From Vibrio lentus (lineage in GTDB: Bacteria > Pseudomonadota > Gammaproteobacteria > Enterobacterales > Vibrionaceae): a DNA stretch of 64,000 nt. Below the pieces are notes generated by a model that did no database searches, was not told where the DNA came from, and was given only the letters and a program-made list of their open reading frames with translations. Position 1 is the first letter of the stretch; the number at the start of each line of letters is the position of its first letter. Position numbers and translations under genes: made by a program. Location: the NCBI RefSeq assembly GCF_030409755.1, contig NZ_JAUFQE010000001.1, positions 1,612,001 through 1,676,000 of the forward strand. The letters run 5' to 3'. Below are positions 41,783 through 52,975 of the stretch, one piece after another.

Positions 41783-41873
41783 GGTTATAGGCTCGCGATA
41801 AATAGGTATTCGGCAGCTTCTAAGTTCTTAATTAAAGTAAATCCATACAAGGACTTATTAATTAGGAATGCTC

Positions 41874-42881
41874 ATGTCTATCGCTCAACCTTACCTTCTT
41901 TTTCTTGGGGATGTTACCGACCCACTTGCAGCAAAAACAGCTCGTGGTATTCATCAATGGCGACCAGAAATTTGCCTAGGTCAGCTTCGTTTAACAGACG
42001 ATACTGTTTCACTTGGCTTAACGGACATGACCTTACAAGAGGCGCAAGCACGGGGCGCGAAAACGCTAGTGATTGGCACGGCAAACCCAGGTGGTGTTAT
42101 TCCTGACTCTTGGCAGCCAACCATAATGGCAGCTGCAGAAATGGGATTTGAGATTGCATCTGGCATGCACCAACGACTGAGTGAATTTTCACCGCTTGCT
42201 GACATGCAGCAACACGGATTGACTAAGCTTCATGATGTACGACACTTTGATGGAGCTCTCAAGGTTGGTAACGGCAAGCCTCGTAAAGGTAAGCGCTTGC
42301 TTACTGTCGGAACAGATTGCTCAGTAGGCAAAATGTTCTCGGCATTGGCGATTGAAAAGTCGCTTAAACAAGCGGGAACATCTGCTCAGTTCAAAGCGAC
42401 AGGACAGACGGGTATCTTGATTGAAGGTTGTGGTATTTCGATTGATGCTGTGGTCGCGGATTTCATTTCCGGCGCGGTTGAAGCGATTAGCCCCGATTTT
42501 ACTGACCACGAATGGGACATCATTGAAGGCCAAGGTTCGTTGTTCAATCCGTCTTTTGCAGGCGTGAGTTTAGGGTTGTTGCATGGCGCACAAGCTGATG
42601 CTTTGGTGTTGTGTCATGAAGTCGGGCGACCACATATTCGCAACCTTCCTCATGCGCGATTGCCAAGCATAGAACAGACCATTGAAGCTAACTTGCAAGC
42701 CGCGCGGTTGACGAATCCAGACGTGAAACTGGTCGGCATTTGTTTGAACACGTCGGCGATTAGCACTGAAGACGCTGAGACATTATGCCAAGAATGGACC
42801 ACACTTTATCAAGTACCAGTGACGGACCCGGTTCGTTTTGGTGTACAACACATTACTGATCATTTGCGACATTCACTTTAA
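41874..42881 (+). CDS. dgcN: D-glutamate N-acetyltransferase DgcN (DUF1611)
   Basis: A 335-residue cytoplasmic enzyme of the DUF1611 family. It contains the family's N-terminal Rossmann-like part (LVIGTANPGGVIP) and a P-loop-like C-terminal part with VGTDCSVGKMFSALAIEKSL, ATGQTGILIEGCGI and WDIIEGQGSLFNPSFAGVSLGLLHG. DgcN acetylates D-glutamate as the first step of a pathway described in marine bacteria and haloarchaea. ATG 41874 has AGGA seven bases upstream; ATG 41868 is too close to it. The racemase gene dgcA lies 57 bp downstream. Confidence 0.85.
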   Translation: MSIAQPYLLFLGDVTDPLAAKTARGIHQWRPEICLGQLRLTDDTVSLGLTDMTLQEAQARGAKTLVIGTANPGGVIPDSWQPTIMAAAEMGFEIASGMHQRLSEFSPLADMQQHGLTKLHDVRHFDGALKVGNGKPRKGKRLLTVGTDCSVGKMFSALAIEKSLKQAGTSAQFKATGQTGILIEGCGISIDAVVADFISGAVEAISPDFTDHEWDIIEGQGSLFNPSFAGVSLGLLHGAQADALVLCHEVGRPHIRNLPHARLPSIEQTIEANLQAARLTNPDVKLVGICLNTSAISTEDAETLCQEWTTLYQVPVTDPVRFGVQHITDHLRHSL

Positions 42882-42938
42882 CGATTTCATCATTTCTACG
42901 TTTCCATTTGTTAAAGCGAACATCAACCGAGTGAAATT

Positions 42939-43925
42939 ATGAAGATTACAGCAGAACCCATTACTATCGCGATGCAAACACCTTTTCGCATCTCTCGTGG
43001 CAGCCGAACGGAGTGTCACGTTGTTCGTGTTTACATTGAACATGGTGGCAAACAAGCTCAGGGCGAATGCACGCCTTACCCACGATACGGCGAGTCATCG
43101 GAGTCTGTGTTAGCGCAAATTCAACAAGCGTCTAGTGCCCTTGAAGCTATGTTTGAACGAGGCGTTACCGATCCCGCAGAGCTAAGAGATCATCTTCAGT
43201 CTTTATTGACTGGAGGAGCAGCGCGAAATGCGGTCGATTGTGCGCTTTGGGATTTTGAAGCGCAGCAGAACGAACAGACGTTTCCAAATAGCTTGTTTGA
43301 GTTACCTGATCAAATCGTTACTGCAATGACAGTCTCCATTGGCACACCGGAAGCGATGGCGACACAAGCTCGAGATTATGTGGGAAATGGGGCGAAACTT
43401 CTAAAAGTGAAGCTTGATGGCGAGCAGGTAGTAGAGCGTGTTCGTGCAGTGCGAGAAGCGGCGCAGGATGTTCAGATTGTACTGGATGCCAATGAAGCGT
43501 GGACAGGGTTAAATCTCGAAGAGTTGTTCAATCAACTTACTGAGTTTGATATCGCGATGATCGAACAGCCGTTACCCCAGCAGCATGATGCCTCACTGGC
43601 ACATATCAATCACCCGATCCCACTGTGTGCTGATGAAAGCTGTCATACCACTTCACAACTTTCACCTTTGTTAGGCAAGTATGAAATGGTCAACATCAAG
43701 CTCGATAAAACGGGCGGTTTGACCGAAGCCTTGGTACTTGCTGAAGAAGCTCAAAGGCTCGGCTTTACTCTGATGTCGGGTTGTATGCTAGGTACCTCAT
43801 TGGCGATGCGTGCAGCATTACCTATTGCGGTTCAATCTGAGATTGTCGACCTCGATGGCCCTGTGTTGCTCGGGCAAGATGTTTCGCCAGCACTGACTTA
43901 TAGAGATGGGATGATCATTCTCTAA
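42939..43925 (+). CDS. dgcA: N-acetyl-D-glutamate racemase DgcA (enolase superfamily)
   Basis: A 328-residue enolase-superfamily enzyme close to dipeptide epimerases. The catalytic Lys pair is in LLKVKLDGEQ (KxK) and NIKLDKTGG, and the metal ligands are Asp in IVLDANEAW, Glu in AMIEQPLPQ and Asp in LCADESCHT. After DgcN acetylates D-glutamate, DgcA racemises the product to N-acetyl-L-glutamate, which is then deacetylated. An L-Ala-D/L-Glu epimerase of cell-wall recycling is the alternative, but linkage to dgcN favours the name given. Confidence 0.85.
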   Translation: MKITAEPITIAMQTPFRISRGSRTECHVVRVYIEHGGKQAQGECTPYPRYGESSESVLAQIQQASSALEAMFERGVTDPAELRDHLQSLLTGGAARNAVDCALWDFEAQQNEQTFPNSLFELPDQIVTAMTVSIGTPEAMATQARDYVGNGAKLLKVKLDGEQVVERVRAVREAAQDVQIVLDANEAWTGLNLEELFNQLTEFDIAMIEQPLPQQHDASLAHINHPIPLCADESCHTTSQLSPLLGKYEMVNIKLDKTGGLTEALVLAEEAQRLGFTLMSGCMLGTSLAMRAALPIAVQSEIVDLDGPVLLGQDVSPALTYRDGMIIL

Positions 43926-44002: not shown

Positions 44003-44314
44003 GTATCAATAAACCTTAACTGATTAATATTACGTGAGTTTTACTGCTTGATTGAGACTGGTGAATTCACTTTACTCGGCTGGTATTGATAAAGTAATCA
44101 CGTTTCTGTCGGTGAGGTCACTTTCTATTATCGCAAAACAGACAGCTCAAGCTTTATAAAATAATTGTTATGATATCTTATGTGAAATGTTAATGATTAC
44201 TCTTCGTTTAATAGTTTCACTAAAGCTATTAGATCTAAGATTAAATAGGTAAACCACCTAACTGATTGAATCATTGACGGATCCTGTTGATTTTATGATG
44301 AGAAGGTGGAGCGA
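44003..44314. other. Promoter region of the two-component system
   Basis: About 310 bp without a gene, AT-rich. I see no -24/-12 promoter and no clean copy of the 15-bp motif found in front of the phosphodiesterase and importer genes, so the sensor/regulator pair is probably expressed from an ordinary promoter. Confidence 0.5.
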
Positions 44315-46279
44315 GTGAGTAGTCATGTCTCCGAGGTGATAGAAAACAAAGACAGTTTTGAACGCCCGTTTTCGATCAAAATCCCGCGTCGTAAGTGGTT
44401 TGGTTGGAAAGGCATTGAACTGCGCTTGGTGTTGGTATTGGCTATGTTATCGATGACCACCATCTTTCTGTCAGTTGTATCGAGCTTCACCTTTGACGAT
44501 TTAAACCAACGCCTTGTTGAATTAAAAGAGAGTGAAATCCCCGCCTTAGATAACGCTGCACGCCTCAATGATATGGTGCGTGTGATTATTACGACCTCAT
44601 CTCAGCTCAGTGACGCTGAATCGAATATAGAACGTAAGCAGGCGATGCTTAAAATTGAAGAGGCCATTTCAGTGATGAATAGCGTTATGGTTCAATTCCC
44701 TGATTATCACGCCTATTTTAAAGACCTTATCGCCCAAGTTAACAATAGTCTGAGTCTATTGTATCAAAGTGAGATTGAGTCAGAACAACTCAATCAAGAA
44801 CTTCGTAATTTGCTTGAAGGCTTTTATCCTCTATTGCAACAAGCCAGTGATTCACTCGATAGTTTGCCTGAGTCAGCCAAAGATCAAATCCAATATACTC
44901 AGTTGAAATCTCTGCTTTATTACCAATTAGGCTTAGTAGAGAAGCTGTATAACGACTCAAGCTTTAATGAGCTCGATTACACTAGCTACCGTCTAGAGCA
45001 GGTAGGGGAAGAGTGGTGGAAGCTCTGGGTCAGTGGTGATTTAAGAAGTGATTTTCCTGAATTAGATCATCAACTCACGGTGATTTATAACCTTGCCTCA
45101 AGTGATAGCAGCTTGTATGGGATGAAAAACAAAGCGCTCGATCATCTTTATCAAGAGCAATACTTCCTGCAAAACAGCCGCGAGCATTTGAACCAATTAA
45201 CCGTGCAGATCGAAAGCAACACCAGCAAGGTGAATAGCAATATTGATCAATCGATTCAGCAAGCGCAGCTGTCTTTACAATCGAATCAGCAACTCTCTCT
45301 TTTTCTTTCCTTGTTTAGCGTGTTGGCTGCCGCTGCCATTTCGTGGTTCTACGTGCGTAAGAGTATTTTAGAAAGGCTTCTACAGCTCAAAGACAACATG
45401 TTCGCGATTTCTACCGGCCATTTAGATACCGAGGTTTCTATTCGGGGAAAAGACGAAGTGACGCAAATGGCCAAGTACCTAAAGGTATTCCAGACCACGG
45501 CCAAAGTCGTTAAGCAAACCAATCGAAAATTAGAGGCTGAGGTTGAAGAGCGCACCTTAGCCGAAGCCAAACTACGAGTAACCCAAGACGAGCTAATCCA
45601 AGCCGGAAAATTGGCCGCGCTAGGGCAATTGAGTGTCGGGATCACGCACGAGATCAATCAACCTCTGACGGCAGTAAACAGTCACGTTCGAAGCGCGCAG
45701 CTTTGGTTAGGCAAGCAAAGGCCAGACAGGGCAGAAGAGAACCTAAAAAAGATCGAGATCTTGTTAGACAAAGTGGCTGCGATTACTCGTCACCTAAAGG
45801 CCTTCTCACGTAAGAGTGATGGCAAGATTGATAACGTTGAATTGGATAAGGTTGTCGGTGATGCGATTGACCTGTTTGAAACCAGACAGAGCAAGGTCTC
45901 GATTCAGTATTCACCACAAAGCGACCAGATGGTTCGAGCCAACAGCATTCGCTTAGAACAGGTATTGGTGAATTTGATCAGCAATGCTCTGGATGCCATC
46001 GAACACAGAGAGCAACCAGAGCTCAGCATCTCTACTCAAGGGCATTCGAATACCATTCAGATTTTGGTGATGGACAACGGGTTAGGGATACCTGAAGAGG
46101 ACATTCCGCATCTGTTTGACCCATTTTATACCCGCAAGACAACAGGTAAGGGGCTTGGGCTCGGTTTGTCTATCGCATACAACATCATAAAAGACTTTGG
46201 CGGCTCGATTCACGTGGAATCAGTTGAACACCAAGGCAGTACTTTTATCGTCACTCTACCAAAAGGCATAGCCTCATGA
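44315..46279 (+). CDS. Sensor histidine kinase (DctB/PgtB-like)
   Basis: A membrane kinase of about 654 residues. Helix 1 is near 30-55 (LRLVLVLAMLSMTTIFLSVV), followed by a large helical periplasmic sensor of roughly 290 residues with no PAS fold I can recognise. Helix 2 is FLSLFSVLAAAAISWFYV, then HAMP, a coiled coil and the HisKA domain with phospho-accepting His445 in VGITHEINQPLTA. The ATP-binding domain has the N box (VNLISNALDA), G1 (MDNGLGIP) and G2 (KGLGLGLSIAYNI). Starts GTG: 44315 has GGAG just before it and AAGG nine bases away; GTG 44306 is also in frame. The stop overlaps the regulator start (ATGA). The signal is probably an organophosphate, by context. Confidence 0.9.
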   Translation: MSSHVSEVIENKDSFERPFSIKIPRRKWFGWKGIELRLVLVLAMLSMTTIFLSVVSSFTFDDLNQRLVELKESEIPALDNAARLNDMVRVIITTSSQLSDAESNIERKQAMLKIEEAISVMNSVMVQFPDYHAYFKDLIAQVNNSLSLLYQSEIESEQLNQELRNLLEGFYPLLQQASDSLDSLPESAKDQIQYTQLKSLLYYQLGLVEKLYNDSSFNELDYTSYRLEQVGEEWWKLWVSGDLRSDFPELDHQLTVIYNLASSDSSLYGMKNKALDHLYQEQYFLQNSREHLNQLTVQIESNTSKVNSNIDQSIQQAQLSLQSNQQLSLFLSLFSVLAAAAISWFYVRKSILERLLQLKDNMFAISTGHLDTEVSIRGKDEVTQMAKYLKVFQTTAKVVKQTNRKLEAEVEERTLAEAKLRVTQDELIQAGKLAALGQLSVGITHEINQPLTAVNSHVRSAQLWLGKQRPDRAEENLKKIEILLDKVAAITRHLKAFSRKSDGKIDNVELDKVVGDAIDLFETRQSKVSIQYSPQSDQMVRANSIRLEQVLVNLISNALDAIEHREQPELSISTQGHSNTIQILVMDNGLGIPEEDIPHLFDPFYTRKTTGKGLGLGLSIAYNIIKDFGGSIHVESVEHQGSTFIVTLPKGIAS

Positions 46280-47628
46280 CTGCAGAAAAACACATAGTTC
46301 TTATCGATGATGAAATCGATGTCGTTGAAGCCGTGAGTGAAATGTTGGAGCTAGAAGGGTTTAGTGTCACCACTTTTACCGACCCTAACCTTGGCCTTAA
46401 ATCGCTCAAAGCAAACAGCCCGTCGGTTGTATTGTGTGATGTACGAATGCCACAGGTGGATGGGCTTACGTTGCTGAGTTCAATTCAACATAGAGCCGCT
46501 AACGTCCCTGTATTGTTGATGAGTGGCCATGGCGATATTCCCATGGCGATAGAGGCAATTAAGCTAGGGGCGTTCGACTTTTTAGAAAAGCCACTTAATG
46601 CGAGTGAGTTGGTAGAGAAGCTCGATTTAGCGTTGGCACAATCTCAGCACAACTGCCCAGCAATTATAGGCGGCGATGAGGAAACGGAGTTACCGATTGA
46701 AACGGTGGTTATTGGCCAATCAAAAGCGATGGATACGATACGTAAGCAAGTGCTTGCGCTGTCTCATACTGGTGTTGATACCATCATCAACGGCGAAACA
46801 GGAACGGGCAAAGAAGTCATTGCTCGCGCGTTGCATCAATTTAGCCGTCGTAAGGCGAAGCCCTTTGTCGCGATCAACTGTGGCGGCATGACAGAAAGCA
46901 TTATCGAAAGTGAGTTGTTTGGTCATGAAGCGGGCTCGTTTACCAATGCCAACAAGAAGCGCATTGGCAAAATAGAACAAGCCAATGGCGGTACTCTGTT
47001 TCTTGATGAAATAGAAAGTATGCCAATTGCGGTGCAAATTAAACTGTTGCGCGTCATTCAAGAACGAGTGATTGAGCGCGTTGGTGGTAACGAGCTAATT
47101 CCGGTCGATATTGTGGTGGTAGCTGCCAGCAAAGCTGATCTCGCGAGCTTGAGTGAAACGGGTGAGTTCAGAGCCGATCTCTTCTATCGCCTCAATATTG
47201 CTAGCTTAAACCTTCCCGCATTGCGTCAACGCAAAGAGGACATTCAGGTGTTGTTCCGTCATTTTGTGATTCAAGCGAGCCACAAATACAAGACACGCCC
47301 ATCAACGATCTATCCCGAACAAATACAGCAGCTATGTCGACACGAATGGCCGGGTAACGTGCGCGAACTGCGTAATGTCGCCGACCGATTTGTACTTGGT
47401 ATTGTTGGTGATGGCTTCGATCTTCAATCACCAATTTGTGAAACGTCCGGAGAAGATTTTGCCTTTGAAAAACAGATGGAGCAGTACGAACGAAATGTTC
47501 TGACTGAGGCGCTTATTGAAAGCGCAGGCAACATCAATGAGGTCTCAAGCAAGCTGAACCTGCCACGCAAAACACTTTATCGAAAAATGAAGAAACACCA
47601 ATTGGATAAAGAGAGCTTCAAGGCCTAA
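46276..47628 (+). CDS. Sigma-54-dependent response regulator (DctD/PgtA-like) with a variant GAFTGA loop
   Basis: A 450-residue activator. The receiver domain (1-120) has the phosphorylated Asp55 in VVLCDVRMP and Lys105 in FLEKPL. The AAA+ domain (about 145-380) has Walker A GETGTGKE (173-180) and Walker B LFLDEIES (241-248). The sigma-54 contact loop at 220-225 is GSFTNA in place of GAFTGA, keeping the key Phe-Thr. A Fis-type helix-turn-helix ends the protein (NINEVSSKLNLPRKTLYRKM). Its start overlaps the kinase stop. Two sigma-54 promoters with shared upstream motifs lie in the next 2 kb, the likely targets. Confidence 0.93.
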   Translation: MTAEKHIVLIDDEIDVVEAVSEMLELEGFSVTTFTDPNLGLKSLKANSPSVVLCDVRMPQVDGLTLLSSIQHRAANVPVLLMSGHGDIPMAIEAIKLGAFDFLEKPLNASELVEKLDLALAQSQHNCPAIIGGDEETELPIETVVIGQSKAMDTIRKQVLALSHTGVDTIINGETGTGKEVIARALHQFSRRKAKPFVAINCGGMTESIIESELFGHEAGSFTNANKKRIGKIEQANGGTLFLDEIESMPIAVQIKLLRVIQERVIERVGGNELIPVDIVVVAASKADLASLSETGEFRADLFYRLNIASLNLPALRQRKEDIQVLFRHFVIQASHKYKTRPSTIYPEQIQQLCRHEWPGNVRELRNVADRFVLGIVGDGFDLQSPICETSGEDFAFEKQMEQYERNVLTEALIESAGNINEVSSKLNLPRKTLYRKMKKHQLDKESFKA

Positions 47629-47660
47629 TTGGTTCATTCATTCGCTTAATAAAAGCACAA

Positions 47661-47675
47661 GACAACAATGACCCA
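47661..47675 (+). promoter_or_regulatory. Candidate upstream activator site for the phosphodiesterase promoter
   Basis: GACAACAATGACCCA. It shares 13/15 bases with 49254-49268 and 12/15 with 49288-49302. Its centre is 70 bp upstream of the GG of the -24 box at 47738. Confidence 0.6.
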
Positions 47676-47736
47676 TTTAACTTTTAGTCGAATGGTTAAC
47701 CGTTTCAAGTAATTGTAATAAAAGGGCTTTAACATT

Positions 47737-47752
47737 TGGCACAATGCGTGCA
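47737..47752 (+). promoter_or_regulatory. Sigma-54 promoter of the glycerophosphodiesterase gene
   Basis: TGGCAC-N5-GTGCA: the GG and GC are at the invariant spacing of the -24/-12 consensus TGGCAC-N5-TTGCA, with a single mismatch. It predicts a transcript start near 47764, leaving a leader of about 140 nt before the ATG at 47904. Confidence 0.8.
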
Positions 47753-47786
47753 ATCACTACATTGTGGCATACGTTCACATGAGGTT

Positions 47787-47850
47787 ATTCGGTGCTGAGT
47801 CAAAATATATATGACAGCTATCTATCTATGACAGCTATCCAACACCGAAT
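47787..47850 (+). repeat. Direct and inverted repeats in the phosphodiesterase leader
   Basis: TATGACAGCTATC occurs at 47810-47822 and exactly again at 47827-47839, a 17-bp period. This pair is framed by ATTCGGTG (47787-47794) and its complement CACCGAAT (47843-47850). All lie between the sigma-54 promoter and the start codon. Confidence 0.8.
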
Positions 47851-47903
47851 GATCGAATAAAGGAAGTTAGAAAAATAATTGCTTGTTGCAAGGAGATACA
47901 AAC

Positions 47904-49124
47904 ATGAAGCAAATACTGAAAGGTTCGATTGCTCTGATACTAGGTGTGAGCTCGATGACGGCATGGGCCGCAGCAGAATCAGCCGACTTAGGTCCTCGTC
48001 CCCTCTTTTTAGTGAACAATATGGATGAGAGCCCTTTGAAAACCAAGCTGTTGAGTTGCAGTGAAGGACCTTTTCATCGTAGTGATTTTTCTATTGGACA
48101 TCGCGGAGCTGCGATGCAGTTTCCTGAACACACCAAGGAATCCTACTTAGCAGCGATTCAAATGGGCGCGGGCGTCGTGGAGTGCGATGTGACTTTCACT
48201 AAAGATAAGGCGTTGGTATGTCGTCACTCGCAAAGTGATCTGCACACCACAACCGATGTTTTAGCACATCCCGATCTTGCTAAGAAGTGTTCAACACCGT
48301 TCACGCCAGCTAACCCAGCGACAGGCGAAGATGCACAGGTTGAGTGTCGTACTTCTGATTTCACGCTAGCGGAGTTTAAGACCCTGAAAGGGAAAATGGA
48401 TGGTGCGAACCCAAAAGCAACCACGGTCGAAGAGTACATGAATGGCACACCTGGTTGGAGAACCGACCTTTACAGCCAAAGTGGAACACTGATGACACAC
48501 GCCGAAAGTGCGGCATTGTTTAAAGAGCACGGCGTGAAGGTGACTCCTGAATTGAAATCAGCGGCGGTAGAAATGCCTTTCAATGGCTTTAGCCAAGAGA
48601 TGTACGCGCAGAAGCTGGTGGATGAGCTGAAAGAGGCGGGCTTTGAGCCTTCGGAGGCTTACCTGCAGTCATTCAACTTGGATGATGTGAAGTATTGGGT
48701 TAAGGAGACGCCTAAGTTCGGCAAGCAAGCCGTTTACCTTGACGACCGTGTCTATGAGCAAGCGGACTTTGTTGCGTCTGTGGAGAACATGAAAGAGCTG
48801 CACGATGCGGGTGTGAATATCATCGCGCCACCTCTGTTTGCTTTGGTTGAGCTAGGCGAGAACAACGAATTGGTTGCGTCTAACTACGCGAAACTGGCAA
48901 AAGATGCTGATCTTGAGATTATTGCATGGACACTTGAGCGTTCAGGCCCGCTAGCGCAAGGCGGCGGTTGGTATTACCAAAGCGTGAAAGATGGTATCAA
49001 CAATGATGGCGACATGATGAAAATGCTTGATGTACTGGCGCAAGATGTCGGTGTTATGGGCGTATTCAGCGATTGGCCTGCAACGGTAACTTACTACGCT
49101 AACTGCATGGACAGCGACGCTTAG
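47904..49124 (+). CDS. Secreted glycerophosphodiester phosphodiesterase (GlpQ-like)
   Basis: A 406-residue enzyme that hydrolyses glycerophosphodiesters (deacylated phospholipid headgroups) to glycerol 3-phosphate and an alcohol, in the periplasm or outside the cell. A signal peptide ends at AWA-A (about residue 22). The GDPD active site is clear: His66-Arg67 in [10 protein letters not shown], Glu93 and Asp95 in VECDVTF, and His108 in VCRHSQ. ATG 47904 has AGGAG nine bases upstream and is preferred over TTG 47883. It is preceded by a sigma-54 promoter and followed by a terminator; the regulator pair lies upstream and the PhnDCEE-type importer downstream. Confidence 0.92.
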
Positions 49125-49210
49125 GCTGTTGTGGTCTCGCTTTACATAGCAATTATAGCGTTTGTATAGAGAGCACTTAGCCAAAGAATAATAAGAGAAA
49201 AAGCAGTGAA

Positions 49211-49238
49211 CCAAAGAGCCTTCGGGCTCTTTTTTTAC
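49211..49238 (+). terminator. Terminator of the glycerophosphodiesterase gene
   Basis: AGAGCC-TTCG-GGCTCT (49215-49230), a stable UUCG tetraloop hairpin, followed by eight T (49230-49237). Confidence 0.92.
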
Positions 49239-49253
49239 CACTGAAATTGGTGG

Positions 49254-49302
49254 GACAGAAATGACCCAAATAGAGACTTCTCGGTTGGACAGTAATGACA
49301 CA
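49254..49302 (+). promoter_or_regulatory. Tandem candidate activator sites for the importer promoter
   Basis: GACAGAAATGACCCA (49254-49268) and GACAGTAATGACACA (49288-49302), 34 bp apart. Together with flanking bases, 19 of 22 positions agree (49249-49270 against 49283-49304). The nearer site is centred 68 bp before the GG of the -24 box at 49363, close to the spacing at the phosphodiesterase promoter. Confidence 0.7.
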
Positions 49303-49361
49303 AAAGTAATTTTCCAATTTAGGGCTTCCTTTAAGCTATTGAAATTAAATAAATTAAAAGG

Positions 49362-49377
49362 TGGCACAAAGGCTGCA
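49362..49377 (+). promoter_or_regulatory. Sigma-54 promoter of the PhnDCEE-type importer operon
   Basis: TGGCAC-N5-CTGCA, the same spacing as the phosphodiesterase promoter and one mismatch from consensus. Predicted start near 49389, 34 nt before the phnD-like start codon. Confidence 0.85.
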
Positions 49378-49422
49378 ATAGCGAAGGTGACTTTCAACAA
49401 TAAGTAAAAGTAAGGTTTGAAT

Positions 49423-50463
49423 ATGAAAATCAGTGTTAAAGGACTGTTAATCGCTAGCTCATTACTACTTTCTTCAATGGCTATGGCAAGCGACTGCTCT
49501 AGTCGTGGTGTGTTAGACGATCGATACTGTGATGAAAACCAAGATTTGGTCGCCGATTCACCAAAGAACCCAGACGAGTGGAATGACCCAAGTACGCTTG
49601 TGTTTACTTACACTCCGGTAGAAGACCCTGCGTTATACAAAGATGCGTTTGCAGATTTCCAAGCTCACCTAAGTAAAATCACGGGTAAACGAGTGATTTA
49701 CTACACAGTTCACTCGAACTCTGCGCAAGTAGAAGCGATGCGTTCTGGTCGACTGCACGTTGCAGGTTTCTCTACGGGCCCAACAGGCTACGCAGTTAAT
49801 TTAGCAGGTTACGTTCCAATTGCGGTGAAGGGCGATGAGTCTGGTTTTCAAGGCTACAACCTAATCACAATTGTGCGTAAAGACAGCGGCATTAACAAAA
49901 TGTCTGATCTGAAAGGTAAAAAGGTTGCACACACTTCTGCATCTTCCAACTCTGGCAACCTAGCTCCACGTGCGTTATTCCCAGCGAAAGGCCTAGTGCC
50001 AGATGAAGATTACAAAGTGCTTTACTCAGGTAAGCATGACCAATCGATTCTAGGCGTCTTCAATGGAGATTATGACGCAGCACCTGTGGCATCGGACGTT
50101 TATGACCGCATGGTCGCAGCAGGTCGTGTTGACGATTCTGAACTGAAGATCATCTACCGTAGCCCACGCTTCCCAACGTCTGCATTTGGGTATGCTTACA
50201 ACCTAAAACCAGAACTGGTTGAGAAGATCAACGAAGCTTTCTTTAGCTACCGCTTTACACCAGAGATGAGCGCATCATTCAAAGGTGCCGACCGTTTCTC
50301 GCCAATCAGCTACAAAGAAGAGTGGGATGTGATTCGTGATATTGCTCATGCGACAGGTACGGCTTACACCAAAACTGGCCTTAAGAAGTTAGCTGAAAAA
50401 GATGCGGCTAAACGTGCAAAGAAAAAAGCCGCTGAGCTAGCAAAACAAGCAAACAACGGCTAA
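49423..50463 (+). CDS. phnD: PhnD-type phosphonate/organophosphate-binding protein of an ABC importer
   Basis: A 346-residue periplasmic binding protein. The signal peptide ends near AMA-S (residue 22). The domain carries the PhnD motifs: LVFTYTPVEDPALYKDAF (phosphate-binding strand), SGRLHVAGFSTGPTGYAV, and LKGKKVAHTSASSNSGNLAPRALF. The C-terminus has an unusual Lys/Ala-rich tail (KDAAKRAKKKAAELAKQ). ATG 49423 opens the signal peptide. It is first in an operon with an ATPase and two permeases under a sigma-54 promoter. The ligand may be a phosphonate, phosphite or organophosphate; the neighbouring phosphodiesterase suggests a phosphodiester or its product. Confidence 0.9.
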   Translation: MKISVKGLLIASSLLLSSMAMASDCSSRGVLDDRYCDENQDLVADSPKNPDEWNDPSTLVFTYTPVEDPALYKDAFADFQAHLSKITGKRVIYYTVHSNSAQVEAMRSGRLHVAGFSTGPTGYAVNLAGYVPIAVKGDESGFQGYNLITIVRKDSGINKMSDLKGKKVAHTSASSNSGNLAPRALFPAKGLVPDEDYKVLYSGKHDQSILGVFNGDYDAAPVASDVYDRMVAAGRVDDSELKIIYRSPRFPTSAFGYAYNLKPELVEKINEAFFSYRFTPEMSASFKGADRFSPISYKEEWDVIRDIAHATGTAYTKTGLKKLAEKDAAKRAKKKAAELAKQANNG

Positions 50464-50530
50464 CTCTTTTTCTATTAGAAGACTAAGTTTTCGAAAGACT
50501 TAGTTCTTTAAATACTTACCTTAACTAAAA

Positions 50531-50559
50531 ATCTATGCCCTCGCGGGTAGGGCATAGAT
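50531..50559 (+). repeat. Intercistronic hairpin between phnD and phnC
   Basis: An 11-bp perfect stem ATCTATGCCCT with its complement and a 7-nt loop, 30 nt before the phnC start. No T-tract follows. A weaker hairpin (ACTAAGT/ACTTAGT, 50482-50504) precedes it. These could keep binding-protein message more abundant than permease message. Confidence 0.7.
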
Positions 50560-50589
50560 CATTCTAAAATTCGCACAAGGAAATGCAGT

Positions 50590-51360
50590 ATGGCCGTAGC
50601 AAGCTATGAAGGAATAAAGATAAACAACCTTTTCCACGAATATGTGGCAGGCAAGCCAATCCTTAAAGGCATTAATATTGATATCGATGAGCCAGGCATC
50701 ATCGCGATCATTGGTCCATCTGGTACCGGTAAAAGTACGCTTCTGCGCTGTATCAACCGCCTCAACGATCCAAGCCAAGGCGAAATCATTTTTGATGGCG
50801 CAGACCTGACTCAATTAAAAGGCCAAGCGCTACGTAAACAGCGTCGACACATCGGCATGGTGTTTCAAGAATATAACCTCGTGGAACGTTTAACGGTTAT
50901 CGAGAACGTGTTGAGTGGCCGTTTAGGCTACATGACGGCTTGGAATGCGTGGCGTCGTAACTATTCTCCACAAGATTTAGCAAAAGCGTTCGAGTTACTT
51001 GAATTTGTTGGCCTACAAGACTTTGCTAACCAACGTGCCGACAGTTTGTCAGGTGGCCAAAGACAGCGTGTCGGTATCGCTCGCGCCGTTATGCAAGACC
51101 CATATATCTTATTGGCGGATGAACCAACGTCATCACTCGACCCAAAAACCGCGGTTGAGATCATGGAGTTGATGGAGACATTCGCAGAACAGAAAAACAT
51201 TCCCGTGTTGGTGAATATCCATGATGTGAACTTGGCCAAGCGTTATGCCAAGCGCATCATCGGCATGTGTAATGGCAAGGTGCATTACGATGGCAGCCCT
51301 GAAGGTATTTCAGAAGAAGACCTAAAAATCATTTATGGGGGTGAGTCATGGCTGGATTAA
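50590..51360 (+). CDS. phnC: PhnC-type ABC transporter ATPase
   Basis: A 256-residue ATP-binding subunit. Walker A is [11 protein letters not shown], the Q loop [15 protein letters not shown], the signature [14 protein letters not shown], Walker [14 protein letters not shown], and the H loop [13 protein letters not shown]. The sequence corresponds to the phosphonate-importer ATPase family. ACAAGGAAA precedes the ATG at 50590. It overlaps the first permease gene by 13 nt. It powers import of the ligand bound by the PhnD-type protein. Confidence 0.92.
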
Positions 51361-52172
51361 ATCCAAGCTCGTCGCCAAGCGTTTCATCAAGCACATCGCC
51401 AGCGAAGTACGAAAATCCGTTCAAAACCTCATGGACTAACCGTGCCATTATCGCTGCAATCATTGGCTACTTGTTTTACAGCTTTGCGACGTTAGGGCTG
51501 ACCTTTGATCGTTTGGTCATCGGTTTTGGTGAAAGTGAGCGGTTACTATCAAGAATGTTTCCGCCAGATTTTTCGCGTACTAATTTACTGCTAAGTGGCT
51601 TAGCGGAGAGCTTACAGATAGCGATCATTTCGAGTTTCTTCGGCATCGTCATCTCACTGTTTATTGGCTTACTTGCTGCAAGAAACATGATGCCTTCGAT
51701 TGTATCGACACCAATTCGTGGCTTTATCGCATTGTGTCGTTCTTTCCACCCAGTGATCATCGCAATCCTATTTGTGAAAGCGGTGGGCTTTGGAGCTCTG
51801 GCGGGGATCCTGACTTTGGTATTTGCATCCATTGGTTTCATCGCCAAGTTGTTTGCAGAAGCGATTGAAGAGATCTCTTTTAAACCGGTTGAAGCGATTA
51901 AAGCGACGGGGGCGAGCTTTGTCAGCGTCATCCTGTACGCGGTGATGCCTCAGGTATTTACTCGTTTCATAGGCTTTGCAAGCTACCAATTGGACTCAAA
52001 CTTACGTAACTCAACCATGGTTGGCATCGTGGGTGCGGGTGGTCTTGGCGGTACGCTTTTCTCGGCATTCCAACGTTTTGATTACGACTTCGTTGCCGCT
52101 ATTTTGATCACCATCATCGCACTGATTCTTGTCGGTGAATTTCTTTCCAATATTGTTAGGAGAATCTTCTAA
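51348..52172 (+). CDS. phnE: PhnE-type ABC transporter permease, first subunit
   Basis: A 274-residue inner membrane permease with about six helices after a Ser-rich N-terminal tail of 25 residues. The EAA-type coupling loop is [31 protein letters not shown], typical of PhnE proteins, and the C-terminal [20 protein letters not shown] is conserved. It overlaps the ATPase gene by 13 nt and the second permease by 1 nt. Two different PhnE subunits suggest a heterodimeric channel. Confidence 0.9.
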
Positions 52173-52975
52173 TGACAACTGCATCTATCGATAGAGAGTG
52201 GCAGCGCTTTACACCCAACGAACGCGTGGCTCGATTTGCTGTTTACCTGAGCTTAGTGTGTGCGATTGTTTGGTCTTGGCAAACCGTTGAAGTGATTCCT
52301 GAGTTTCTATACGACGCACCAGCCCAGTTTGCTGACATGTTCGAACGAATGGTACCAATGGACTACGCGTTCTATCCTGAGTCGATTCACGCAGCGATGA
52401 TTGAGACACTGCACATCGCGACGTTAGGTACCTTGTTTACCTTGGTATTTGCTATCCCTTTGGCGCTGATGAACGCGCCAAATATCACTCCGAATAAAGC
52501 CTTGAACTGGATTGCTCAATTCTTTCTCGTGTCTTCACGTTCTGTGAACTCATTGGTTTGGGCATTGCTGTTCATCGCACTTTTTGGCCCCGGTGTTCTC
52601 GCAGGCATCATGGCGATTGCCATTCGTAGTATCGGCTTTGTAGGGAAGCTGTTAGCGGAAGCAATTGCCGAAGTGAACATGGGGCCTATTGAAGCTTTAC
52701 GCGCGACAGGCGCTTCTTGGATGAGCGTTTTACTTAAAGGTTATTGGCCACAAGTGATGCCAGCGTTCTATTCCATCGTGTTATTCCGTTGGGACATCAA
52801 TGTACGTGAATCTGCGGTACTGGGTTTGGTGGGTGCTGGTGGTATTGGCGTGGTGCTAAACGATGCGCAGAACCTTTTTGAATGGCAAAAAGTTTCGATG
52901 GTATTAGTGAGTATCTTCGCAGTGGTTATCGTTGCAGAAGCGGTGGTGATCCAAATCCGTAATAAACTCATATAG
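52172..52975 (+). CDS. phnE: PhnE-type ABC transporter permease, second subunit
   Basis: A 267-residue permease paralogous to its neighbour. Its coupling loop is AIAEVNMGPIEALRATGASWMSVLLKGYWPQ and its ending has GLVGAGGIGVVLNDAQNLFEW. The start codon overlaps the previous stop (TAATG), so translation is coupled. It completes a PhnD-PhnC-PhnE-PhnE operon, followed by a strong terminator. There are no C-P lyase genes, so the imported compound, if a phosphonate, is degraded elsewhere or is really a phosphate ester. Confidence 0.9.
   Translation: MTTASIDREWQRFTPNERVARFAVYLSLVCAIVWSWQTVEVIPEFLYDAPAQFADMFERMVPMDYAFYPESIHAAMIETLHIATLGTLFTLVFAIPLALMNAPNITPNKALNWIAQFFLVSSRSVNSLVWALLFIALFGPGVLAGIMAIAIRSIGFVGKLLAEAIAEVNMGPIEALRATGASWMSVLLKGYWPQVMPAFYSIVLFRWDINVRESAVLGLVGAGGIGVVLNDAQNLFEWQKVSMVLVSIFAVVIVAEAVVIQIRNKLI

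Follow-up and report, generated by a model that had tools for sequence, protein, structure and literature searches.

Genes, promoters and activator sites at the locus

The window analysed here is a stretch of 64,000 nucleotides of the Vibrio lentus contig NZ_JAUFQE010000001.1 (positions 1,612,001 to 1,676,000), and the locus under study lies at its positions 44306-52975. There, a sensor histidine kinase and a sigma-54 activator of the NtrC type adjoin an exported glycerophosphodiester phosphodiesterase (GDPD) and an importer of the PhnD-C-E-E type (Table 1), and every gene named in the original prediction, which had been made from the sequence alone, is present. The kinase and activator genes share an ATGA overlap (46276-46279). 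Both -24/-12 promoters proposed for the GDPD and the importer were recovered in their predicted places, the sigma-54 promoter pattern TGGYAY-N6-TGC being found in both target upstream regions. As the GDPD unit closes with a stem-loop and a T-run, the importer probably needs a promoter of its own; the stem-loop was noticed by eye only and is absent from the computed terminator list.

The shared activator motif is an 18-bp imperfect palindrome, TGGGACA-N4-TGWCCCA. It is located 61 bp from the -24 element of the GDPD promoter and, in two copies spaced by 34 bp, 93 and 59 bp from that of the importer. Thus, the predicted shared motif is real and its predicted distance of about 70 bp was roughly right, but the second importer site had gone unmentioned.

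Table 1. Genes and DNA signals of the locus, in positions of the window.
Feature	Position	Strand	Remarks
Sensor histidine kinase	44306..46279	+	Transmembrane part, all-helical periplasmic sensor of ~275 amino acids (predicted fold like TorS), HAMP, HisKA, HATPase
NtrC-type response regulator	46276..47628	+	Receiver, sigma-54 AAA+ (GSFTNA), Fis-type helix-turn-helix (HTH)
Activator site of GDPD promoter (putative)	47658..47675	+	CAAGACAACAATGACCCA; 3 mismatches
Possible integration host factor (IHF) site, GDPD promoter	47703..47715	+	1 mismatch; between activator site and promoter; weak
-24/-12 promoter of GDPD	47737..47751	+	TGGCACAATGCGTGC
Exported GDPD	47904..49124	+	PF03009; signal peptide judged by eye
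Terminator-like stem-loop between GDPD and importer units	49213..49236	+	AAAGAGCC-TTCG-GGCTCTTT and T-run; by eye
Distal activator site of importer promoter (putative)	49251..49268	+	TGGGACAGAAATGACCCA; 0 mismatches
Proximal activator site of importer promoter (putative)	49285..49302	+	TTGGACAGTAATGACACA; 2 mismatches
Possible IHF site, importer promoter	49332..49344	-	TAAGCTATTGAAA; 1 mismatch
-24/-12 promoter of importer	49362..49376	+	TGGCACAAAGGCTGC
GpxB-type glycerol-phosphate binding protein, PhnD family (predicted)	49423..50463	+	
Importer ATPase, PhnC family	50590..51360	+	
Importer permease 1, PhnE family	51348..52172	+	
Importer permease 2 (PhnE2), PhnE family	52172..52975	+	

Conservation and specificity of the signals

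The binding protein was searched against 296 Vibrionaceae genomes, 86 of which match at an E-value of 1e-60 or better. A form 87-100% identical to it, referred to as clade A, was found in 61 of the 296 genomes, the window's included, and the 60 other loci were fetched, giving 61 importer units together with the window. The kinase and the activator are located upstream of the importer in all 60 fetched loci; the genes are visibly broken in a Veronia locus (L193), the kinase is split in L184, and it runs off the fetched stretch in L195 and L196. The GDPD is intact between the regulators and the importer in 54 of the 60.

Upstream of the importer, the -24/-12 promoter is exact in 58 of the 61 units and has one mismatch in the other three, and the best activator site has 0-2 mismatches in all 61 (at 93 bp in 50, at 59 bp in nine and at 101 bp in two). 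When the 300-bp upstream regions were shuffled in 2-base blocks, the numbers expected by chance were about 0 of 61 for the exact promoter and about 0.1 of 61 for a site with at most two mismatches. For the GDPD, an exact promoter was found in 55 of 55 upstream regions and an activator site with 1-3 mismatches in 53 (59-62 bp in 50, 49 bp in three) or with four mismatches in two, compared to chance levels of about 0.1 of 55 for the exact promoter and 1.1 of 55 for a site with at most four mismatches. Clade B, comprising 39 binding-protein matches of about 48% identity, served as a control. None of the 20 fetched clade-B loci has a kinase, activator or GDPD match (one of them, L225, starts 745 bases before gpxB), and neither an exact promoter nor a site with at most three mismatches occurs in any of the 18 readable upstream regions. 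Since the clade-A loci are akin, they are not independent tests, and it is the fixed spacing and the contrast with clade B that carry weight.

Possible IHF sites between the activator sites and the promoters are suggestive only. For the importer, 52 of 61 intervals contain a match with at most one mismatch (about 24% of the shuffles do), and for the GDPD 40 of 55 (about 23% of the shuffles). The best match lies at the same place as the importer candidate of the window in 51 of the 61 orthologous intervals. Autoregulation of the kinase was rejected, as none of the 47 readable kinase upstream regions carries an exact -24/-12 promoter or an activator site with at most three mismatches. The GDPD leader of the window contains a tandem copy of ATGACAGCTATC (47813-47840), called terminator-like on the minus strand, which is probably not essential because the length of this leader differs among the orthologues.

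Some loci show peculiarities of their own. In L195, an extra peptidase-like open reading frame (ORF; by eye) on the opposite strand separates the GDPD from gpxB; the promoter of gpxB lies behind this ORF and is intact. In Veronia nyctiphanis (L012, the same locus as L193), the genes for the kinase and the activator appear to be broken and no match to the GDPD was found, while gpxB, its promoter and the sites persist; the regulon may be decaying in this species.

The genome of the window (5.9 Mb, three contigs) was scanned with a combined pattern of activator site, spacer and promoter. Two exact matches were obtained, both at the locus, and none in the reversed control; as the pattern was built from these two sites, only the absence of other matches is informative. 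The activator site alone, with at most one mismatch, should not be over-read: it gave nine genome matches, three of them at the locus, versus eight in the reversed control. The activator signal thus stands out only in combination with position, promoter and conservation. With the combined signal confined to the locus genome-wide, the prediction of a self-contained sigma-54 two-component regulon of the GDPD and the importer gained support.

The regulator-gpx arrangement is also present in Moritella, Zobellella and some Oceanospirillales. The nearest ten activator relatives among the matches listed (L009-L018; Vibrio, Moritella, Veronia, Zobellella, Oceanospirillum, Motiliproteus and a metagenome-assembled genome of Oceanospirillaceae) have the order kinase-activator-gpxBCEE; L009, L011 and L012 were already among the 60 Vibrionaceae loci. 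In these ten, all 16 target upstream regions contain an exact -24/-12 promoter and 15 a site with at most three mismatches. No gpxB match was found at the other 70 of the best 80 activator relatives (at most 48% identity), some of these loci being short. Among 369 sampled genomes of the class, seven had a binding-protein match at an E-value of 1e-80 or better; clade A was found only in the window's own genome, and the GpxB-like proteins of the six others are 46-58% identical.

Predicted properties of the gene products

The best solved relative of the binding protein is GpxB (9lf9/9lfb), described in December 2025 as a binding protein for glycerol-1-phosphate and glycerol-3-phosphate in marine bacteria (PMC12718374). 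The bit scores were 273 for GpxB, 95 for PtxB, 60 for an alkylphosphonate PhnD and 42 for HtxB. Nine ligand residues of GpxB were compared (T111, G112, Y138, S168, N169, S170, H199, R223 and T247), and eight are identical in the window protein, in which Ser253 takes the place of T247. Every one of the 70 clade-A rows, which represent 67 distinct loci, has this serine, as do the window protein and three of 20 clade-B proteins; the remaining eight residues are unchanged in 70 of 70 rows. In the tree, the sigma-54-linked binding proteins form one fully supported group (100/100) on a long branch of their own. The rooting rests on a single, very long PtxB row, and relative closeness to GpxB, PtxB, HtxB or PhnD lies outside what this tree can test. 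The resemblance to GpxB supports the earlier proposal that the importer carries what the cleavage of phosphodiesters yields, and not a phosphonate.

The GDPD of the window scored 86.7 bits with PF03009 (cut-off 23.6) and 50.6 of the 254 bits of the GlpQ equivalog NF008354. In two Zobellella loci (L015, L017) a GlpQ-type GDPD (by eye) occupies the same place with its own -24/-12 promoter and an activator site with perfect arms, TGGGACAACCCTGTCCCA. Sigma-54 control has thus taken in GDPDs of two different kinds. Two other Gammaproteobacteria have a GDPD of 58-61% identity to that of the window adjoining a canonical gpxB without kinase or activator (divergent in L115, upstream in L116), indicating that GDPD and GpxB belong together independently of sigma-54 control.

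The HAMP and HisKA scores of the kinase were below the curated cut-offs. The full-length model had a predicted local distance difference test score (pLDDT) of 70.5, and because the kinase core filled its fold list, the sensor was folded alone. TorS rows then came first with two aligners, while a search of the sensor sequence against solved structures gave chance matches only. Residues ~216-231 (44951-44998) form a strongly conserved stretch of the sensor, NDxSFNELDYTxxRLE, a candidate contact or ligand site.

The activator has a receiver, a PF00158 AAA+ domain and a Fis-type HTH. Its sigma-54 contact motif, canonically GAFTGA, is GSFTNA, compared to GSFTSA in 58 and GAFTSA in two of the 60 Vibrionaceae orthologues. 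No other activator examined (these 60 and those of 80 loci, one unreadable) has N at position 5 of the motif. In D. vulgaris, activators with GSFTGA, or with D, E or H at position 5, have been considered competent for activation (PMC4641369). The recognition-helix string LPRK goes with the right half-site TGAC at the locus itself, at the 60 Vibrionaceae loci and at L009-L013 (for L012 in a different reading frame), and LTRK or LSRK goes with TGTC in L014-L017; no string of these types was found in L018. The covariation of helix and half-site probably reflects one evolutionary step.

The statement that C-P lyase genes are lacking is true of the window but fails for the genome, in which phnJ lies ~31 kb past the window's end. 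It is confirmed within a C-P lyase-like operon starting at C1:1701362 (L236), ~25 kb past the window's end, and this run contains another PhnD-family protein and PhnC-/PhnE-like genes (apart from PhnJ and the PhnD-family protein, the genes were named from their sequence). A second, stand-alone gpx operon is located on the larger contig from C2:1525450 onwards (L109/L238); its binding protein is 47-49% identical, no kinase, activator or GDPD match was found there, and a GntR-like gene (by eye) adjoins it. Elsewhere in the genome, a GlpT-like gene adjoins a GlpQ-like GDPD, both named by eye. The window importer is thus not the only candidate for glycerol-phosphate uptake in this cell, and would be an additional, separately wired route. 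Histidine-phosphatase-like genes with the motif RHGHSxAN (by eye) occur near gpx operons in L015 (15697-16377), L110 (8533-9174) and L113 (4206-4754), and possibly encode a glycerol-phosphate phosphatase.

Two neighbours of the locus in the window are apparently not part of the regulon. DgcN and DgcA (N-acetyltransferase and N-acetyl-D-Glu racemase; 41868-43925, both above the NCBIfam cut-offs) lie upstream, and a ribosome hibernation-type factor (PF02482; 53489-53845, minus strand) lies on the other side; the Pfam name of the latter, 'Sigma 54 modulation protein', implies no tie to the regulon.

Proposed function and relation to known systems

Members of the GDPD family cleave glycerophosphodiesters to an alcohol and glycerol-3-phosphate. 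We consider it probable that the locus is a dedicated sigma-54 regulon that salvages glycerophosphate from phospholipid remains. The kinase would sense the substrate in the periplasm through its TorS-like helical domain, either directly or via a loaded GpxB-type protein, and, as the gene overlap and the domains suggest, would phosphorylate the activator. Hexamers of the activator would bind the conserved sites, whose centres lie near -94 and -128 for the importer and near -96 for the GDPD, and open the two -24/-12 promoters, perhaps with the help of an IHF bend. The exported GDPD would split glycerophosphodiesters such as glycerophosphocholine, and GpxB-C-E-E would import glycerol-3-phosphate, and probably archaeal glycerol-1-phosphate, as a source of carbon and phosphorus. 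As a tentative extension, which we think rather less likely, the GpxB-type protein could be both transporter subunit and receptor: loaded with either glycerol phosphate, it would dock on the TorS-like sensor and start its own sigma-54 operon and the GDPD. If so, sensing by the binding protein would close a positive feedback loop for the salvage of lipid backbones from Bacteria and Archaea, without a separate sensor protein.

Several observations weigh against the proposed glycerophosphate salvage, which as a whole stands at the level of sequence and predicted fold. Of the 60 Vibrionaceae loci, five lack the GDPD and one has only a fragment of it. The T247-to-Ser exchange in all clade-A proteins could shift the ligand preference. 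In the fold comparison the lower-ranking TorS rows are level with McpZ and McpS (15.6 versus 15.4 and 15.3), and the window kinase has no match to the TorS Pfam model PF21689, which matched six of 11 orthologous sensors and exceeded its cut-off in two of the six rescanned. As GSFTNA is unlike the motif of all other activators examined, the activity of the window activator is not assured. The activator sites of L018 are poor, with 4-5 mismatches only. Outside Vibrionaceae the clade-A importer is not common, since only the window's own genome among the 369 of the class contains it. Finally, further targets were sought in one genome only, with a strict pattern derived from its own two sites.

The same regulon might instead serve another small phosphate ester, such as phosphocholine, phosphoethanolamine or phosphoglycerate, as cargo or signal, with glycerol phosphate as a side substrate. 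The long branch of clade A and its uniform serine are in line with this. However, the other eight ligand residues are invariant, the adjoining GDPD would make glycerol-3-phosphate, GDPDs of two kinds are under or beside the control, and binding of other C3 phosphates by the GpxB of the literature was weak or absent (PMC12718374); we find this alternative unlikely. There is a similarly small chance that the kinase reads a different cue coupled to lipid salvage, for instance a C4-dicarboxylate, as the database name 'DctB' would imply. Such names look like automatic transfers, TorS rows ranked first by both aligners, and every one of the 67 distinct loci seen has the kinase linked to gpxB.

Control of both units mainly by PhoB, with the -24/-12 elements secondary or idle, would be typical for phosphate scavenging, and weak PHO boxes may be beyond the reach of the scans: a genome-wide PHO-box scan was without power (18 matches versus 22 in the reversed control). 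No PHO box with at most four mismatches was found in the two target upstream regions, the best PHO-like matches having five mismatches of 18 (GDPD) and six of 18 (importer). As the sigma-54 elements are kept at near-fixed spacing across the clade and are lacking from related importers without the activator, PhoB control appears quite improbable. Least probable is the reading that the PhnDCEE names invite, an importer of phosphonates that would supply C-P lyase. PhnC and both PhnE proteins do exceed the NCBIfam Phn cut-offs and the genome has phnJ, but the binding protein reached only 134.8 bits with the PhnD equivalog TIGR03431 (curated cut-off 261.1) and has GpxB residues at the tail positions, so the importer is unlikely to be a phosphonate transporter. 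With the C-P lyase region seemingly equipped with its own importer, this candidate was rejected.

Glycerophosphate salvage under dedicated sigma-54 control would thus combine parts of already known kinds, namely a GpxB importer, a GDPD and an NtrC-type two-component control. As far as the literature found shows, the new element is the regulator pair with its regulon, in which a GpxB importer and a GDPD are combined. In the titles and abstract openings of the papers listed, with subscription papers mostly outside the coverage, nothing was found on sigma-54 control of GpxB or of a GDPD with an importer, and a term check in the available text of three sigma-54 papers gave the same result (PMC3162934, PMC9817140, PMC12316311). 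GpxB has been described as belonging to a marine importer of wide occurrence that takes up lipid backbones from Bacteria and Archaea, with Vibrionales among its carriers. The authors of that work ask for its regulation to be studied; the available main text has no mention of 'phosphodiesterase' or 'two-component' (PMC12718374). The locus offers a concrete candidate for this regulation, with a dedicated kinase, activator and sites, and would link the salvage of lipids to sigma-54 and not solely to the Pho regulon. The regulator pair could also serve as a ready-made glycerol-phosphate biosensor.

Several known systems share features with the locus. The ugpBAECQ and glpTQ genes of E. coli and Salmonella likewise join a GDPD with glycerol-3-phosphate uptake, through transporters of other families, and glpTQ is controlled by GlpR; PgtC, a component of the Salmonella Pgt system discussed below, is periplasmic. 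In Salmonella, Ugp is PhoB-controlled (PMC11077982, PMC10715179). The GpxB importers of Phaeobacter sp. MED193 and Marinobacter resemble that of the window in being ABC importers whose PhnT-family binding protein shares all but one of the ligand residues, while the locus differs in its separate clade (100/100), in Ser for Thr247 and in its regulators, none being reported in the available text on GpxB (PMC12718374). The TorT-TorS system is similar in the predicted sensor fold of the kinase, but the TorS equivalog cut-off was missed (143 of 677), an NtrC-type activator follows the kinase, and the binding protein is of the PhnD family. The original prediction had suggested that dedicated two-component, sigma-54 control of a GDPD and an importer would be a different logic, but such a logic has precedents: Pgt and Uhp are dedicated, substrate-activated and PhoB-independent organophosphate systems (PMC11077982, PMC10715179). 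Pgt of Salmonella has PgtC, given as membrane-localized, as a partner in sensing, the kinase PgtB and the activator PgtA, one domain of which is predicted to contact sigma-54, and thus shares dedicated two-component control with the locus (PMC11077982). PgtB is also the best NCBIfam match of the window kinase. The window proteins are nevertheless below the cut-offs (PgtB 229.3 of 1000 bits, PgtA 316.8 of 650), and no separate PgtC-like gene was noticed among the genes examined at the locus. Moreover, the Pgt system (PgtC-PgtB-PgtA/PgtP) has a facilitator-type transporter for phosphoglycerate (PMC11077982, PMC10715179), in contrast to the ABC importer and GDPD of the locus.

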